Shown here: positions 435 to 31,195 of the stretch, piece after piece
How the letters are laid out: every line of letters begins with the position of its first letter
Numbering within the stretch: the first letter of the stretch is position 1
Virus record (IMG/VR): IMGVR_UViG_3300027985_001168
Span: 1-32,437 of that record
Reading direction: 5' to 3' (one strand)
From: a virus
DNA: 32,437 bases
Made by a program: the position numbers and the translations under genes
The notes under the pieces: generated by a model
The model's database searches: none
Told to the model about the DNA's origin: nothing
Seen by the model: the letters and a program-made list of their open reading frames with translations, nothing else

Positions 435-740
435 GTTGGCGGTAATGCTAAGAAACATACTGCCGTTTTATTTGAAATCGGAGTTCAAACCCGAAAAAAC
501 ATAGCCTATATTGATACATTTCTGGGCTATGCCACCATTTTGCAATACCAAACAAACACCAGTCATCAGGTGGATATTTATGATTCCATCTGCAATAACC
601 ATATACTTTCTCAATAGAATGTTTATATTTTGTCCTCATAATAAAGCACATACCGCCAACAATATGTATAAACAAGCGGGCGGAAACATCTTACTTATAC
701 TGCGGGTTCATAGCATTGCCCGCCTGCTCATACATTTAAC
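435..740 (+). mobile_element. attC-like gene cassette A1 (array 1)
   Basis: The unit begins at GTTGGCGGTA (435-444), includes a small minus-strand ORF, and closes with TACCGCCAAC (651-660) plus a long palindrome up to the next GTT at 741. The first 10 nt are the exact reverse complement of 651-660 and the eleventh base differs. The strand given is that of the inferred recombination order, in which each palindrome belongs to the gene on its left. The left junction abuts a short hairpin, TTCCGA-TAG-TCGGAA, at 421-433, which probably belongs to the receiving phage DNA. Confidence 0.7.
448..639 (-). CDS. Small unknown protein of cassette A1
   Basis: This 63-aa protein, starting MRTKYKHSIEKVYGYCRW, is rich in Trp, Tyr, Cys and His. 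It contains WHSPEMYQYRLCFFGFEL, a composition that looks selected rather than random and resembles small phage or cassette proteins of unknown function. I choose the ATG at 639. The ATG at 651 overlaps the 10-nt cassette signature, and the longest frame (from 675) starts inside the attC palindrome. The stop codon lies 13 nt from the crossover GTT at 435. No membrane segment or known domain was recognised. It could be an anti-host or superinfection factor, which is pure inference from its cassette location. Confidence 0.55.
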   Translation of the reverse strand: MRTKYKHSIEKVYGYCRWNHKYPPDDWCLFGIAKWWHSPEMYQYRLCFFGFELRFQIKRQYVS

Positions 741-747
741 GTTATAA
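651..747 (+). repeat. attC-like palindromic recombination site of cassette A1
   Basis: The opening box TACCGCCAAC is followed by the arm 664-681, which pairs imperfectly with 718-735 (ATGTATAAACAAGCGGGC against GCCCGCCTGCTCATACAT). The loop is about 36 nt, and the closing box GTTATAA (741-747) follows TTAAC. The AACAAT...TTAACGTTA frame resembles integron attC ends. Confidence 0.7.
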
Positions 748-1125
748 GCAATAAAAATTACGATTGCGTTAATTCAGTATAGCCTGTTAATTCGCCAATT
801 TTTTCAGCAATTTCCCAAGCTGTTGCAAATCTCTCTTTTTTAAGAGCGCGGATAAATAATCGGTAATCGTCAAAAGTTTTTAATTGCTTATATTTTTGCA
901 AATCATTATTTTCAAGCATATTGAAAATTTCAGAATTTTGCGCTTTTGCCAGTTTTATAATAGATTGTTCCATATATTTTGATAATTAATTAAAGATTAA
1001 ATGCTTATAACATACAACATGCGTCAACCTGCCGTTTGGTGCAAGTAAGATGTTAAGCAGTAAATAAATAACTTTGTTTTTCAATACAACTTTGCGCTCC
1101 GGCAGGCTGCGCATGGTTGCTTTTC
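741..1125 (+). mobile_element. attC-like gene cassette A2 (array 1)
   Basis: The unit begins GTTATAAGCA (741-750) and carries one minus-strand ORF. It closes with TGCTTATAAC (1002-1011) plus a palindrome ending at the GTT at 1126. Complementarity is again exactly 10 nt. The right junction is remarkable: GTT at 1126 overlaps the TAA stop codon of the antirepressor gene, so the array was inserted immediately after that codon without damaging it. Confidence 0.7.
758..973 (-). CDS. Small unknown protein of cassette A2
   Basis: A 71-aa, mostly helical, charged protein starting MEQSIIKLAKAQNSEIF. It contains an aromatic-charged stretch (FDDYRLFIRALKKERFATAW) followed by EIAEKIGELTGYTEL. No domain was recognised. 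The ATG at 973 lies 38 nt inside the cassette from the opening box of its palindrome, so translation is entirely cassette-encoded. The stop is 17 nt from the crossover at 741. It is the sole ORF of its unit, as expected for an integron-type cassette. The function is unknown. Confidence 0.6.
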   Translation of the reverse strand: MEQSIIKLAKAQNSEIFNMLENNDLQKYKQLKTFDDYRLFIRALKKERFATAWEIAEKIGELTGYTELTQS

Positions 1126-22329: not shown

Positions 22330-22360
22330 TTATCCGTTTTTAACGGTTAAAAACGGATAA
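22330..22360. repeat. Perfect 15-bp palindrome beside the cassette array
   Basis: Arms TTATCCGTTTTTAAC and GTTAAAAACGGATAA are separated by a single G. It ends 17 nt from the first crossover GTT (22378). It lacks a T-run of terminator type. It may be a dimer-binding site, a recombination core, or part of the receiving site used by the cassettes. Confidence 0.6.
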
Positions 22361-22377
22361 GTTGCGTATATACAGAT

Positions 22378-23295
22378 GTTATAAGTAATTGCTACCATTC
22401 CGTTTCAAATGGAGTTTCGGGCGAAAAACTTTTATTAAAATCTTCCAACCGCACTTTAATTTTTTCAAAATTATTTGGTTCTAATTCCATCGTTATAAAT
22501 TGCCTGTTGGTTCTTAAACAAACTTCTGCCGTTGTTCCGCTTCCGCCAAAAGGGTCTAAAATTAATTGTCCTTCATTGCTCGATGCTAACACCAAATCAG
22601 TAATAATTGAAAGTGGTTTTTGGTCACGGTGTCCTGTGCGTTCTTTTGATAAGTGTCCGAGCAATGCTGGTCTTTCAATTACATCTCTTGGTAAAGCACC
22701 TTTTGAAGTATCATAAGCACTGCATTTATCCATTCTACCGCTTGATGGTCTTATTCTACCATTCAGTTTCTTTGTGCTTTCGTTGTATTCAACTCTTACT
22801 GCATCTTCATTAAAAATTGAATTACCTCTATATCCGTAAATTATTGGTTGCATACTCATTCTCCATCTACCCTTTGGTTTTGGTGAATTTTTGTAGTGCC
22901 AAATAAGTAATTCCTTTTTATCAATTTTCATTTGAGAAAACCAATGTTCAGCAATCATATTCTTATTTCCAAAAACATAAATTGAACCATCTTTACTCAA
23001 ACATCTAAGCATTTCTGCAAAGTATGGTTTCATATCTTCAATTTCGTATGGTGGGTCTGTTACGACTAAATCCACACTACCTGTTGGTATCAGTTTCATC
23101 AGTTCTAAACAATCACCAAATAATAATTTTCTTTTTCCTTCGCTCATTTTAATAAAAGTTTTTTTCGTTCTCCATATTTAAGTTTATGCTAAATAAACCG
23201 CAACTACTTATAACACGGTATATAAGCAAGTTTGCCATTAAGTTTATCGGTAATTTGAAACATTCTGTAAGGCAAACCTGCTCATATACACCACC
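22378..23295 (+). mobile_element. attC-like gene cassette C1 (array 2)
   Basis: It begins GTTATAAGTA (22378-22387). It holds a DNA methyltransferase gene on the minus strand and closes with TACTTATAAC (23205-23214) plus a palindrome to the GTT at 23296. The complementarity of the two ends is exactly 10 nt. The flanking sequence ACAGAT on the left is not palindromic, so this is the array's outer junction. Confidence 0.7.
22392..23147 (-). CDS. Orphan DNA methyltransferase (beta class) of cassette C1
   Basis: A 251-aa enzyme transferring a methyl group from SAM to DNA amino groups. The catalytic motif IV is TDPPYEI (30-36). Motif I, DPFGGSGTTAEVC, comes near the C-terminus (~195-207). That order, IV before I, defines the beta class of N4-cytosine/N6-adenine enzymes. 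GHLSKERTGHRDQKPLSI lies between them. No restriction nuclease is next to it, so protection of phage DNA from host restriction is the likely role. The stop codon is 14 nt from the crossover GTT. The start ATG at 23147 is 58 nt inside the palindrome's opening box, and the leader contains no other gene. Confidence 0.85.
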   Translation of the reverse strand: MSEGKRKLLFGDCLELMKLIPTGSVDLVVTDPPYEIEDMKPYFAEMLRCLSKDGSIYVFGNKNMIAEHWFSQMKIDKKELLIWHYKNSPKPKGRWRMSMQPIIYGYRGNSIFNEDAVRVEYNESTKKLNGRIRPSSGRMDKCSAYDTSKGALPRDVIERPALLGHLSKERTGHRDQKPLSIITDLVLASSNEGQLILDPFGGSGTTAEVCLRTNRQFITMELEPNNFEKIKVRLEDFNKSFSPETPFETEW

Positions 23296-23302
23296 GTTAT
23301 GC
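23205..23302 (+). repeat. attC-like palindromic site of cassette C1
   Basis: The opening box TACTTATAAC is followed by the arm 23217-23236 (GGTATATAAGCAAGTTTGCC), pairing with 23271-23292 (GGCAAACCTGCTCATATACACC), with about 34 nt of loop and closing GTTATGC at 23296. The right arm carries extra unpaired bases, as in attC sites. Confidence 0.75.
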
Positions 23303-23963
23303 CCCATTTAAGAAGCCTTCGATATAACCTCAAATGTAATTTGATTTGGGAGTATTCCATTGCAAACATACACACTTGAAAACGGAGGGTTTAAGCTCGG
23401 TTTTGGGTCTGTATAGCTTTTAAAATAGCTTATTCGTTTATCAAAGTACATTATTTCAAACTTGTTTTCTTTAAATAAATTGAAACGTTTTGCACTTTCA
23501 AATAAGCCAACTACACCAACAAGCATTGCAAAAGGTTTACCTATTTCAAATAGTTTTTTAAACACTTCAAATTTAAGACTGTAAGGTGGGTTTGAAATAA
23601 TGTAATCGCATTGTGGCACTTCCATTTCAAAAAAATCAAATCCATTTTCAATGTGCGTATTTAAAACCTTATGTCCTTGTGCTACTAATAGTTTCACAAA
23701 ATTACTATCTGTTGTATCAAATGGACACCATACATTACTATTCGGTTTTAAATATTTTAGCAATGGAATTATTGCATAGTTTGGTGTATAAAACTCGTCA
23801 TTTGGGTTTATTTCGCCTTGTCGTTCAGCTTTGTTTGTAATTAAATCAAATTTCATAAAATAAAGAATAAAAACGGGGCATAACACAGGCTATATGCAAT
23901 TGCCCAATTAAGTTTAGTGCAGTATTTAAAGTTTTTACAAGGGCTACTGCACATAGCCCTAAC
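23296..23963 (+). mobile_element. attC-like gene cassette C2 (array 2)
   Basis: It begins GTTATGCCCC (23296-23305) and closes with GGGGCATAAC (23875-23884) and a palindrome to the GTT at 23964. The 10-nt match is perfect and ends there. It holds one minus-strand methyltransferase-like gene. Confidence 0.7.
23308..23856 (-). CDS. N6-adenine-methyltransferase-like protein of cassette C2
   Basis: A 182-aa protein from the ATG at 23856 (MKFDLITNKAERQGEINPND). The frame extends to a GTG at 23886, but that lies in the crossover box. Motif IV, SNPPYSLKFEV, is clear (~89-99). A degenerate motif I (SNVWCPFDTTDSNFVKLL) is near residues 38-55, with a conserved F-Y-T-P-N-Y opening. This is the small class I methyltransferase group common in phages and cassettes, often labelled N6-adenine-DNA or RNA methyltransferase. 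The substrate is unproven. The stop is 12 nt from the crossover GTT. Confidence 0.75.
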   Translation of the reverse strand: MKFDLITNKAERQGEINPNDEFYTPNYAIIPLLKYLKPNSNVWCPFDTTDSNFVKLLVAQGHKVLNTHIENGFDFFEMEVPQCDYIISNPPYSLKFEVFKKLFEIGKPFAMLVGVVGLFESAKRFNLFKENKFEIMYFDKRISYFKSYTDPKPSLNPPFSSVYVCNGILPNQITFEVISKAS

Positions 23964-23970
23964 GTTACCC
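23875..23970 (+). repeat. attC-like palindromic site of cassette C2
   Basis: GGGGCATAAC opens the site. Arm 23887-23905 (AGGCTATATGCAATTGCCC) pairs with 23941-23960 (GGGCTACTGCACATAGCCCT) with one extra G. The closing box is GTTACCC at 23964. The loop shares TTAAGTTTA with the C1 site. Confidence 0.75.
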
Positions 23971-24449
23971 ACTATTTACATGAGCCACATTTCATCAGGT
24001 TCGCAATTCAATTCCTTACACGCACACCCAAAACTTTTACCATTCCACTTTTGAGCGCAATAGGCATTGGGATTACTGTATTTAGCCATTGAATACTCTT
24101 CCCATGTAATTTCACCGCTTATTTGCATCCTATCATAATGGGTATTATAGTCTTCATCTTCTTCCTCTCCAAATTCTTCATTTATTTTATTCATCCTACT
24201 TTTTGCACTCAAAATTTCATCCCGCAAAGTTTTTACTTTTTCAGTTACTTCTTCAGCGTTTAAAGTGGCGTAAACAAGTTGTTCTATACCTTCATACCCA
24301 CACTTAATAACTACATAAACAGTGGGTAACACGGTATTAACTTCATTGCCTTGTGGCTTTTCTGAAACTTCACTCATATATTTAAGTTTTAATCGTTTAA
24401 TAATCTGTTATGGTTAATCGAGCAACGGCAACGAAAGCCAATACCCATC
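23964..24449 (+). mobile_element. attC-like gene cassette C3 (array 2)
   Basis: It begins GTTACCCACT (23964-23973) and closes with AGTGGGTAAC (24321-24330) plus a long palindrome to the GTT at 24450. The gene's start codon lies inside the unit's own palindrome. Confidence 0.7.
23976..24377 (-). CDS. Small acidic Cys-containing protein of cassette C3, starts inside attC
   Basis: A 133-aa acidic protein. The N-terminal ~17 residues (MSEVSEKPQGNEVNTV) are translated from the palindrome, and 24321-24330 (the opening box) lies within codons 16-19. The apparent core starts VYVVIKCGYEGIEQLVYATL and ends GKSFGCACKELNCEPDEMWL. No ATG is available between the box and the core in this frame, so the start at 24377 seems real. 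Cassette and gene thus cannot be separated, which ties the palindrome to this gene. The core recalls short hypothetical proteins of Bacteroidota. Two conserved-looking Cys pairs could bind metal. The function is unknown. Confidence 0.6.
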   Translation of the reverse strand: MSEVSEKPQGNEVNTVLPTVYVVIKCGYEGIEQLVYATLNAEEVTEKVKTLRDEILSAKSRMNKINEEFGEEEDEDYNTHYDRMQISGEITWEEYSMAKYSNPNAYCAQKWNGKSFGCACKELNCEPDEMWLM

Positions 24450-24456
24450 GTTATGG
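24321..24456 (+). repeat. attC-like palindromic site of cassette C3 (longest)
   Basis: Arm 24331-24357 (ACGGTATTAACTTCATTGCC continuing to TTGTGGC) pairs with 24422-24449 with several mismatches. The loop is about 64 nt. The closing box is GTTATGG at 24450. The site overlaps 57 nt of coding sequence. Confidence 0.7.
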
Positions 24457-25044
24457 TTAATTAGATTTCGTAACATTTTGGAAACTCGTTAATACCACAA
24501 GTGCCTTTACGATCAATATCATTTGCATCATGAAATCTAATACAGTCTCCATAAATGAAACCTTCAATAATTGCTTTATCAAAGCAGTTTGGCATAAGTT
24601 TATTTATTTTTTTTGAATAAATATATCCAGGAACATAATAAAATTTTGGTTTGTAAATAGTTCCAGTAATTTCAGAAAGTTTTTTAAGTGAAATGCTACA
24701 TTCATGATGCTGTCCCAAACGATAATCATTTCCATAAATATTTATAGTCGCCCAATCAAATATTATTTGTAATCTTCCTTTTTTGAAATAATGCTTAGTT
24801 AACTCCGACGCATAATCTGAGATGACAAATCGCCCTTCTCGTTTGTATACATAATGAGTTATATCTCTAAAACCATGATTAAGTAATAGTTTAGCAAAAT
24901 TAACTCTATTTTCAGGTGTTTGTAAATTGAATATCATAATCAAAAATTTAACAGTAAATAACCATAACATGAGCTAAACGCAAGCCCTTTAAAGTTTATA
25001 GCTAAAATCTGGATGCTTACTTGGCTAGCTTTTAGCTTTATCCA
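24450..25044 (+). mobile_element. attC-like gene cassette C4 (array 2)
   Basis: It begins GTTATGGTTA (24450-24459) and closes with TAACCATAAC (24959-24968) plus a palindrome to the GTT at 25045. The right junction is 8 nt from the stop codon of the replication-region methyltransferase-like gene (25054). Confidence 0.7.
24461..24937 (-). CDS. Unknown protein of cassette C4
   Basis: A 158-aa protein from the ATG at 24937 (MIFNLQTPENRVNFAKLLLN). The longer frame from 24970 begins in the crossover box and gives a hydrophobic tail, so it is not preferred. It is rich in Tyr, Lys and Ile, with short strands and C-terminal Cys (GTCGINEFPKCYEI). Motifs such as YKREGRFVISDYASELTKHY look like a compact alpha/beta fold. 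No domain was recognised. The stop is 11 nt from the crossover. Confidence 0.6.
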   Translation of the reverse strand: MIFNLQTPENRVNFAKLLLNHGFRDITHYVYKREGRFVISDYASELTKHYFKKGRLQIIFDWATINIYGNDYRLGQHHECSISLKKLSEITGTIYKPKFYYVPGYIYSKKINKLMPNCFDKAIIEGFIYGDCIRFHDANDIDRKGTCGINEFPKCYEI

Positions 25045-25051
25045 GTTACAA
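24959..25051 (+). repeat. attC-like palindromic site of cassette C4
   Basis: TAACCATAAC opens the site. Arm 24972-24986 (AGCTAAACGCAAGCC) pairs with 25023-25037 (GGCTAGCTTTTAGCT). An internal copy (TAGCTAAAATCTGGATGC) can also pair with the right arm. Closing box GTTACAA at 25045. Confidence 0.65.
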
Positions 25052-25053
25052 TT

Positions 25054-25530
25054 TCACATCTCCCACCCAGTCACATCCACAAAATTCGAAAGTACTGCAG
25101 TTGTTTTTGGGTAGTAAGTATATTCCTTCACGTATTTAAAGAGAGGTAAAATCTTATTATAGCCATAGTAAGCCTTTTTTTCAAAGTCGTGCACTACCAA
25201 TATAAGCGCATGCTTAAATTTGGCAATGTCCACAATACGCCGCTCAGCCGGTGCATGGTCAATAAACACAATGGAGGCAGCTATTGCAGGCACATCCTTC
25301 CAGTCATTCACCAACTCAATGCGGTGGTTTTGGCATTCCAGCTCCTTTATGGTATTATAAAACTCCGGATTACTCTCAAAAGTAATTACTTTTCTCCCTG
25401 TGCGGGCAAACTGGTTAAGTAGCGGAGTACTCGAAAGCCCTCCGCCCATTTCAACCACTAGACCACTTTGCTCAAGCAAGGCCCTGGTTAAAAGTGGCAA
25501 GTGTGTGCCGTAGGTTATTAGATGTTTCAT
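25054..25530 (-). CDS. Class I SAM-dependent methyltransferase-like phage protein
   Basis: A 158-aa protein. Motif I is LVVEMGGGLSSTPLL (~24-38). A second strand VITFESNPEFY (~48-58) carries the acidic ligand of SAM ribose. Then VFIDHAPAERR (~89-99). That order fits the Rossmann methyltransferase fold. It lacks NPPY/DPPY, so it is not a DNA amino-methyltransferase. Phages often carry such short proteins, whose substrate is unknown. It lies downstream of the primase operon and just upstream of cassette array 2. Heptamer repeats precede its start. Confidence 0.65.
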   Translation of the reverse strand: MKHLITYGTHLPLLTRALLEQSGLVVEMGGGLSSTPLLNQFARTGRKVITFESNPEFYNTIKELECQNHRIELVNDWKDVPAIAASIVFIDHAPAERRIVDIAKFKHALILVVHDFEKKAYYGYNKILPLFKYVKEYTYYPKTTAVLSNFVDVTGWEM

Positions 25531-25558: not shown

Positions 25559-25634
25559 TTAAATTTCTAAGTTCTAATGACCAATGACCAATGACCAATG
25601 ACCAATGTCTAATGACCAATGACCAATGACCATT
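25559..25634. repeat. Heptamer repeat array mixing both unit types
   Basis: Units YAATTTC/TAAGTTC are followed without a break by TAATGAC, CAATGAC (three), CAATGTC, TAATGAC, CAATGAC (two). The AAA and TCA variants share one phase, which shows they are one family. Confidence 0.85.
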
Positions 25635-30382: not shown

Positions 30383-31195
30383 TTAATTAAAATATTGTTT
30401 TAAACCCTTAATCCCTTTCAATTTCCTGATCGCTGATTCTTTAATTTGTCTCGCGCGCTCTCGTGTCAGTCCTATGTTTTCGCCAATTTCTTCGAGCGAA
30501 ATGGCCAGGCAGCCAATGCCAAAACTATTCCTGATAACATAGGCCTCGCGACTGCTTAGTCTGGTCATGAAAAGGCTTAGAAAAACATCGTGTAATTCAC
30601 CATTGAGCAGCTCCTTATCCTCGTCACCAGGGCGATAATTGGTCAAAATATCTTCTAAGGTGTCATTTTCTCCCATCTCATCGCTCAGATGGCGGGCAAC
30701 ATAACTAAATTCAACATGCTCAATATTGTATATGTCAGACAAATCCCCATTTTGGATTTTCTGATTGATTACCTCGTTTTTCCTGTTGTTAATCGAAATT
30801 TCGGAGCGCTTATTTTGCGGAAGGCGAATACTGTGCTTATTTGCCAGCTCCACATTAATCGACTGACGTATCCACCATACGGCATACGAAATAAACTTAA
30901 AACCACGGCTGGGGTCAAATCGCCTGGCTGCTTCAATAATGCCAAGGTTACCGGCCTGAATAAGGTCCTGCAGTTCAACACTCGGATCGAGGTATTGTTT
31001 GGCAACAGATACCACAAAGCGCAAATTTGCCTTAATCAAGCGCTCAGTTGCCTTCTGGTCTCCATTTTTTGAGAGCTCTGCCAGTTCAACCTCTTCCTCC
31101 ACAGTCAGCAATTCATATTTGCTGATATCAGAAAAGTATTTTGTAACCGACTCCCGGCGCTCTGTTATTCTATTTGTAATTTTAATATCTCTCAT
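30383..31195 (-). CDS. Phage-encoded primary-type sigma-70 factor
   Basis: A 270-aa sigma factor that would redirect host RNA polymerase. Region 1.2/2 is clear: KYELLTVEEEVELAELSKNG (27-46), KANLRFVVSVAKQYL (~58-72), DLIQAGNLGIIEAARRF (~79-95), RGFKFISYAVWWIRQSI (~98-114). Region 4 ends SLEEIGENIGLTRERARQIK (~233-252), like Bacteroidota RpoD. Between residues 130 and 200 the sequence is divergent and short compared with region 3. The N-terminus lacks the RpoD region 1.1. The close match to Bacteroidota primary sigma suggests capture from a host. Early genes or the late promoter in 21671-22140 are likely targets. Confidence 0.9.
   Translation of the reverse strand: MRDIKITNRITERRESVTKYFSDISKYELLTVEEEVELAELSKNGDQKATERLIKANLRFVVSVAKQYLDPSVELQDLIQAGNLGIIEAARRFDPSRGFKFISYAVWWIRQSINVELANKHSIRLPQNKRSEISINNRKNEVINQKIQNGDLSDIYNIEHVEFSYVARHLSDEMGENDTLEDILTNYRPGDEDKELLNGELHDVFLSLFMTRLSSREAYVIRNSFGIGCLAISLEEIGENIGLTRERARQIKESAIRKLKGIKGLKQYFN

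Follow-up and report, generated by a model that had tools for sequence, protein, structure and literature searches.

The viral record IMGVR_UViG_3300027985_001168, whose 32,437 nucleotides were analysed in full (the window), carries four units, each composed of one minus-strand gene and one hairpin, at positions 22378-25044. A preliminary description read these units as an integron-type cassette array inside a phage genome. This reading raises the question of whether such units are mobile and to which recombination system they belong.

Clusters of attC sites without an integrase (CALINs) have been reported in virulent phages by Qi et al. 2023 (PMC9892861), so the claim of the preliminary description that no phage is known to carry such an array was wrong. 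Among them is a cluster with two methyltransferases in the Flavobacteriaceae phage Polaribacter P12002L, whose attC sites were noted in divergent directions; when two P12002L sites were assayed in E. coli, IntI1 recombined one of them, acting on the attC bottom strand. The window resembles these CALINs in its attC-like clusters, the lack of an integrase and its methyltransferase cargo. Unlike the present data, the passages of PMC9892861 drawn on here describe no systematic gene reversal, position-11 mismatch, natural cassette movement or recombinase without the I2 insertion, and the main text of that paper leaves Flavobacterium unmentioned. The I2 insertion of integron integrases is described in PMC7790495 as known from no other protein, with intermediates missing.

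Results and discussion

Organization of the arrays in the window

A sequence scan of the window confirmed the four units, with exact 10-nt end repeats and hairpins in 4/4 (Table 1). The two DNA methyltransferases claimed earlier were borne out by profile matches in C1 and C2, and, in agreement with the earlier remark that no integron integrase is visible, none was matched: the profile search of the window yielded no tyrosine recombinase (Phage_integrase), and the Rfam search of the window gave no match. The layout is attC-like, with complementary R''/R' boxes around an imperfect hairpin and GTT cores as bounds, the exact edges being taken from relatives. The C3 hairpin is 77% identical in a DNA alignment to one in LR756500.1. 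A palindrome in the array head, at about 22330-22360, is a possible terminator. A second, two-unit array at about 435-1125 was missing from the preliminary description.

Table 1. Features of the two cassette arrays in the window.
Feature	Positions	Strand	Details
Array head	22330..22377	+	candidate attI-like side
Cassette C1	22378..23295	+	start GTTATAAGTA; end repeat to 23214; hairpin 23215-23295
C1 gene	22392-23147	minus	N6_N4 DNA methyltransferase, Pfam PF01555, E 8.8e-29
Cassette C2	23296..23963	+	end repeat to 23884; hairpin 23885-23963
C2 gene	about 23308-23856	minus	EcoRI-type methyltransferase, PHROG 799, E 6.9e-30
Cassette C3	23964..24449	+	end repeat to 24330; hairpin 24331-24449
C3 ORF	23976-24377	minus	function not assigned; first ATG within its own C3 hairpin
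Cassette C4	24450..25044	+	end repeat to 24968; hairpin 24969-25044
C4 ORF	24461-24970	minus	function not assigned
Array tail	25045..25060	+	GTTACAATTTC
Unit B1, second array	435..740	+	GTTGGCGGTA; end repeat to 660; hairpin 661-740
Unit B2, second array	741..1125	+	GTTATAAGCA; end repeat to 1011; hairpin to about 1115-1125
B2 ORF, second array	758-973	minus	

The empty site of the window is predicted to join 22377 to 25045. Neither this site nor a close relative of the window was found among the viral contigs and phages searched: viral contigs searched by capsid, primase and terminase contained no relative, and in phages neither tblastn of C3 and C4 nor the second array as DNA query gave a match, while tblastn of the window primase returned only 5 remote records. 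The flank-gene search gave 5 remote loci, in which the sole match was one relaxed unit, probably due to chance.

Structure of the putative recombination sites

Four chained hairpins of the window are linked by three exact 10-nt repeats (C2-C4); the C1 repeat matches too, but without a hairpin ahead of C1. In dinucleotide shuffles of the window (n=200), the longest chain comprised two hairpins and occurred in 7 of them. The match had been described as stopping after exactly 10 nt; the 10 exact nucleotides hold, but the plain stop does not, since position 11 is a near-fixed mismatch, which creates the apparent stop, and pairing is back at positions 12-14 or 12-15. On the plus strand, position 11 is A at the start and C at the end in C1-C3, and A at both ends in C4; the A/G position-11 rule is kept in C1-C3 and broken in C4 and the second array. 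The unit starts (GTTATAA, GTTATGC, GTTACCC and GTTATGG) all depart from the R' consensus GTTRRRY at position 5, and a GTTAT start is also present in 27/47 units of IntI arrays.

Single-strand folding, proposed earlier as a check, was mildly non-random only: the bottom strand had the lower minimum free energy in 6/6 window sites, with z from -0.8 to -3.3, but only two sites went beyond -2, namely site 1 (-3.25) and the second of the pair in the small array (-2.28), and in site 2 the top strand has an equally good z. The bottom strand was the more stable in 62/76 phage hairpins and 25/31 host hairpins; this preference was weak in IntI arrays (34/56 hairpins). The strand asymmetry depends on G-T pairs, as the mean energies of the strands become nearly equal when these are disallowed. 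In the position profiles, the matches at positions 1-9 (phage) and 1-8 (IntI) follow from how the profiles were constructed. Phage strands were picked by the reversed gene, so that orientation is a choice and mismatch polarity a result; the host-region profile was printed under the same rule and hence represents the opposite strand.

Arrays beside recombinases lacking the I2 insertion

Host regions (3.4-19.9 kb long) were picked by recombinase homology regardless of arrays. Strict A/G units were found in 18/28 regions around IntI relatives without the I2 insertion, versus 0/20 IntI regions (p 1.8e-6) and 1/20 random regions (p 2.3e-5). The first unit lies less than 1 kb from the stop of the homologue in 11 of the 28 host regions and 2.7-7.5 kb off in 4; units are solely on the other side in 3, and 10 contain no strict unit, 3 of which end 0.1-0.83 kb from the gene. 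Genes in the host arrays are forward in 34 cases and reversed in none (of 37); relative to the unit start, the polarity of the mismatch and the choice of the stable strand are unchanged.

The I2 gap, taken from K to HxxR, is 65 aa in two phage proteins, 64-65 in the host proteins (measurable in 25/28), 64 in the NZ_CP111080 protein and 106 in IntI (measurable in 20/25); it was not measurable in the NZ_CP041688 protein. In the recombinase tree, the homologues group with IntI, away from XerC/XerD, and IntI is nested among them, so these relatives could represent extant intermediate stages in the origin of integrons; array presence does not track the clades. Relative to the XerA-like family (NF040815), the phage recombinase scores 194.5 bits, below the 220 cut-off, and, unlike XerA-like proteins, the recombinases here adjoin cassette arrays.

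Among viruses, an I2-less recombinase was found in only 3 contigs, and it adjoins the array head in L135 and L136. Two of these contigs, with recombinases differing by 1 residue, have a 55-bp head in common and differ in their cassettes, which begin 51 bp from the recombinase ATG; the contig of the third viral homologue stops at the junction. On the Chryseobacterium plasmid NZ_CP041688 and on plasmid NZ_CP111080, a single strict unit and chained hairpins lie next to the homologue. No units were found in phages Freya_8 and Ingeline_1, whose integrases are more remote. In one further genome (G413), a 333-aa recombinase near units is only remotely related. The window head resembles host heads no more than chance would produce (6 matches vs 7.4 expected). 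The putative link of the I2-less recombinases to the arrays is one of position.

Gene orientation and relation to canonical integrons

Among 99 unique units, 96 genes are reversed, 1 is forward and 2 are undecided. These units come from 63 sources, including two from bacterial genome bins (L062 and L066); a separate strict-unit scan covered 60 sources, which overlap (the same phages twice). Canonical cassettes have the gene in the attC direction and attC 3' of it; here, the hairpin travelling with the gene sits on its 5' side, as seen in morran9-1 versus lillamy9-1. Extra bases placing the hairpin 3' of the gene were rejected on the same comparison. The hairpin contains the leader and, in one third of the units, also the first ATG, so that each cassette probably drives its own expression. 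Strict units are absent in 15 of the 48 viral loci found by pattern; since most viral loci were selected by the hairpin DNA pattern, their frequency among viruses is biased. Phage_integrase had no match in 32/34 records examined, window included; these comprise 29 of the 48 pattern loci, some without a strict unit, and 5 others, short whole contigs and repeats of Flavobacterium phages being left out.

The window could alternatively represent an ordinary CALIN, with canonical cassettes moved by a host IntI and genes merely inserted backwards. IntI is above the cut-off in 105/395 sampled genomes of the phylum, IntI-linked arrays have the same layout of a roughly 10-nt repeat and a hairpin, and IntI may move these cassettes, given that IntI1 recombined a P12002L attC bottom strand (PMC9892861). 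Chromosomal integrons of Bacteroidota share units that start with GTT, complementary ends that are mostly 10-12 nt long and hairpins of mostly 76 or 98-119 nt. They differ in the I2 insertion of their IntI, and in 9 IntI regions the 47 units lack the second 4-bp stem and the fixed mismatch, while genes point forward, away from intI, 40 to 6; together with the zero count of strict units in IntI regions, this makes the ordinary CALIN unlikely. No IntI with the I2 insertion lies nearby in the window, and CALINs are without IntI by definition. P12002L itself contains one strict unit at 30952-31120; a relaxed chain, also seen, is weak. Membership of the window array in canonical integrons is doubtful because its genes are reversed and strict units are common beside the I2-less relatives and not found in the IntI regions. 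In the open-access literature searched, both the reversal and the association of strict units with I2-less relatives, not IntI, look new.

Natural movement of cassettes in Flavobacterium phages

The unit grammar of the window also fills arrays in isolated virulent Flavobacterium phages, where 18 arrays comprise 31 cassette types, 11 of them DNA methyltransferases; the tail is shared, the head is variable and a 70-nt head flank is identical in 18/18 arrays. Comparison of lillamy9-1 with morran9-1 revealed one inserted unit between flanks identical across the aligned stretch, and this distinguishing cassette is a DNA homologue (69%) of C2. Between lillamy9-6 and 9-7, a 439-bp cassette with 0 differences has left the interval between cassettes 12 and 15 for the array head, the 12|15 junction is restored exactly and the rest of the array matches. 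Insertion edges in the compared phages coincide with the GTT core. The presence or absence of one cassette and the relocation with an exact junction strongly support that the units are mobile cassettes. A fixed operon carried by many phages, named beforehand as a refuting outcome, was sought in related arrays and not encountered; the C2 homologue is a single cassette, present or absent. Of the integron-type reading, mobility thus stands, canonical membership is in doubt and novelty falls.

Homologous recombination between phages, in place of site-specific recombination, could be invoked for these differences, as long identical stretches are common to the phages and hemulen6-1 and stinky9-1 differ in a two-cassette block (19+3); the move of an identical cassette to the head, in an array that matches elsewhere and whose old junction is exact, and the insertion edges at the GTT core, render it very improbable. 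A reading of the end repeats and hairpins as structures of the mRNA instead of DNA recombination sites, suggested by the G-U at position 11 and the better folding of the phage coding strand, is scarcely credible and was rejected, since units move as DNA and since, in host arrays of opposite gene direction, mismatch polarity and the stable strand remain tied to the unit start.

Proposed model and implications

The window is likely to carry mobile single-gene cassettes in an array that has no recombinase of its own and belongs to an integron-like system exchanging anti-restriction methyltransferases. Each unit consists of a GTT, a reversed gene, a complementary end repeat and a hairpin. As in the relatives, single units would be gained, lost or relocated with exact GTT-core edges, the hairpin 5' of the gene would move along with it, and the array head would be the variable end. 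Recombination may use the bottom strand of the hairpin in its folded form and take place at the attI-like head, through a recombinase acting in trans; this enzyme, putatively an integron-integrase relative without the I2 insertion, would come from the host, from a plasmid or from another phage. Virulent phages would, by exchanging DNA methyltransferases, escape restriction.

The broader proposition, which we hold to be evenly balanced, is that a second cassette-capture system is common to chromosomes, plasmids and phages of Bacteroidota, is run by I2-less IntI relatives, which could be present-day intermediates from the emergence of integrons, and is used by phages, with cassettes reversed, to exchange anti-restriction genes. 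If true, virulent phages would be shown to have an active cassette-shuffling platform in which relocations occur naturally. This platform might be tied to host range: as reported by Nilsson et al. (PMC7077304), the LMO9 phages plating poorly on LMO6 are all without one methyltransferase that is present in well-plating LMO9 phages. I2-less recombinases beside attC-like arrays would render the origin of integrons directly testable.

Structure of the cassette arrays

The four-unit array proposed in the preliminary description, with a minus-strand gene, a 10-nt repeat and a hairpin in each unit, is present in the window. Each unit consists of GTT N7, one minus-strand gene, the exact 10-nt reverse complement and a hairpin, which is immediately followed by the next GTT. 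A four-hairpin chain with exact 10-nt repeats was obtained in 0 of 200 dinucleotide shuffles, the longest shuffled chain comprising two. The two expected DNA methyltransferases are encoded by cassettes C1 and C2; the C3 and C4 proteins showed no clear family.

Features of the window and a similar locus
Feature	Position	Remarks
Main array (C1-C4)	22378-25044	Filled by four head-to-tail units
Second, smaller chain	~435-1125	Two units; position 11 is A/T, not A/G
Palindrome TTATCCGTTTTTAACGGTTAAAAACGGATAA	22330-22360	Just beyond array head; terminator-like for minus-strand genes
Short direct repeats (gaccaat)	25578-25600	Downstream of right flank gene
L004 (LR756500.1), 462-kb metagenomic phage genome	2737-4419	Same-type units; one hairpin 77% identical to that of C3

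The repeats were thought to end after 10 nt. They are indeed exact over this length, but there is no simple stop: position 11 is a built-in mismatch, and pairing resumes at positions 12-15. When 88 phage units were chained by requiring a match at positions 1-9 alone, pairing was seen at position 10 in 67 of them, at position 11 in none, at positions 12-15 in 82, 83, 77 and 66, and at position 16 in 12; in 76 of the 88, position 11 reads A in the start sequence and G in the reverse complement of the end. By comparison, in 47 units from arrays adjacent to integron integrases (IntI), chained on positions 1-8, pairing faded gradually (45 at position 9, 42 at 10, 33 at 11, 19 at 12 and 13 at 13). 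Bacteroidota IntI arrays (L098-L117) contain a T/G mismatch at position 11 (9/47) or 12 (12/47), which may correspond to the A/G of the phages.

A strict scan of 60 sources identified 121 A/G units, distributed over 39 of them; a single shuffle of every source yielded no such unit. Opened to all 16 position-11 combinations, the scan yielded 121 AG, 110 GA and 10 of any other kind, the GA class representing the same units read on the opposite strand. Strict units also occur on two short contigs binned as a proteobacterium (L066) and an uncultured bacterium (L062), which are possibly misbinned phage DNA.

The gene is reversed, pointing away from its own hairpin, in 96 of 99 unique units. Among 111 units with an ORF of at least 40 aa, the first ATG lies within the hairpin in 37, and the stop codon coincides with the TAA of the GTTA core in 26.

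The presumed absence of described phages with such arrays did not hold, as phage CALINs (attC clusters without an integrase) carrying methyltransferases are reported in PMC9892861. In the mainly open-access literature covered, no report was found of cassettes that are systematically reversed, of the bipartite repeat, of virulent phages in which cassettes relocate naturally, or of arrays adjoining recombinases that lack the IntI-specific insertion (I2).

Cassette movement in Flavobacterium phages

Related arrays were reached via blastn in Flavobacterium phages from the Baltic Sea, described as virulent (PMC7077304), in which the array sits near the left genome end. A C2 homologue is the one unit by which the aligned stretches of lillamy9-1 and morran9-1 differ; its insertion point falls precisely in front of a GTT and leaves the adjacent hairpin intact, and thus the hairpin upstream of a gene belongs to the cassette of that gene. 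Before the inserted unit the two genomes are near-identical (33 differences in 6075 bases), and further on their cassettes differ. An identical 439-bp cassette is interior in one of lillamy9-6 and 9-7 and at the head in the other, the interior junction being restored to the base. Our catalogue comprises 31 cassette types across 18 arrays, in which the preceding 70 nt are identical (18/18), the first cassettes variable and the last ones shared. Integrons behave in the same way. The phage array is mobile.

Recombinases associated with the arrays

A Phage_integrase match was absent from 32 of 34 records examined. G418 (locus L135), one of the two exceptions, encodes a 277-aa recombinase that begins 51 bp from the array head. 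Contig L136 carries a recombinase differing from it by one residue, with the same head and other cassettes, and in L137 a 71% homologue lies at the contig end, at the junction. By alignment, the phage recombinase keeps R, K, HxxR, H and Y, the residue set of tyrosine recombinases, and lacks the IntI insertion; its scores fall below the cut-offs for both IntI (157 vs 265 bits) and XerA (194.5 vs 220). In a midpoint-rooted tree of a small sample, the phage enzymes, the host homologues and IntI form one group (100/99) that excludes XerC and XerD; IntI (100/100) is nested inside this group. In the integron-like subgroup of PMC8138268, the insertion is reported to be not fully conserved.

A homologue at E 1e-50 or better is encoded by 27 of 395 genomes sampled within the phylum to which a MAG titled Cyclobacteriaceae belongs. 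Strict A/G units occurred in 18 of 28 homologue regions, versus 0 of 20 IntI regions and, in the same genomes, 1 of 20 regions taken at random. They lie downstream of the recombinase and on its strand in 15 of the 18 (less than 1 kb from its stop in 11), and their genes are forward in 34 of 37 cases and reversed in none. On plasmids from Chryseobacterium sp. SNU WT5 (NZ_CP041688) and from Pontibacter kalidii (NZ_CP111080), one A/G unit per plasmid and a chain of hairpins follow the homologue on its downstream side. No such units were found in phages Freya_8 and Ingeline_1, which have remoter integrases.

Proposed mechanism

The units, the mismatch, the precision with which units are gained or lost and relocated among relatives, and the positional link to I2-less recombinases are established; the following steps are proposed. 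Strand choice would proceed through bottom-strand folding; G-T pairs make the bottom strand the more stable one in 62 of the 76 hairpins from phages and in 25 of the 31 from hosts. Gene direction differs between phages and hosts, whereas strand polarity is fixed relative to the unit start, which places the signal in the DNA rather than in the mRNA. In the window, the recombinase would be supplied in trans. IntI is a possible acting enzyme, since IntI1 recombined one of two P12002L sites tested (PMC9892861).

Cassette cargo and host range

When annotations were compared with unit coordinates, 11 of the 31 cassette types proved to contain an annotated DNA methyltransferase. One of these, cassette 19, is missing from both phages named in the regrowth test of PMC7077304 (lillamy9-1 and morran9-1) and from lillamy9-6, lillamy9-7, stinky9-1, snusmum9-1 and hattifnatt9-1; it is carried by hemulen9-1, sniff9-1 and filifjonk9-1. 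Since snusmum6-1, isolated on Flavobacterium strain LMO6, likewise lacks it, the link between cassette 19 and plating on LMO6 is only a lead. The arrays of hemulen6-1 and stinky9-1 (L119, L124) differ by a 1181-bp block, the length of cassettes 19 and 3 together, and these two phages offer a naturally occurring pair in which plating on LMO6 can be compared.
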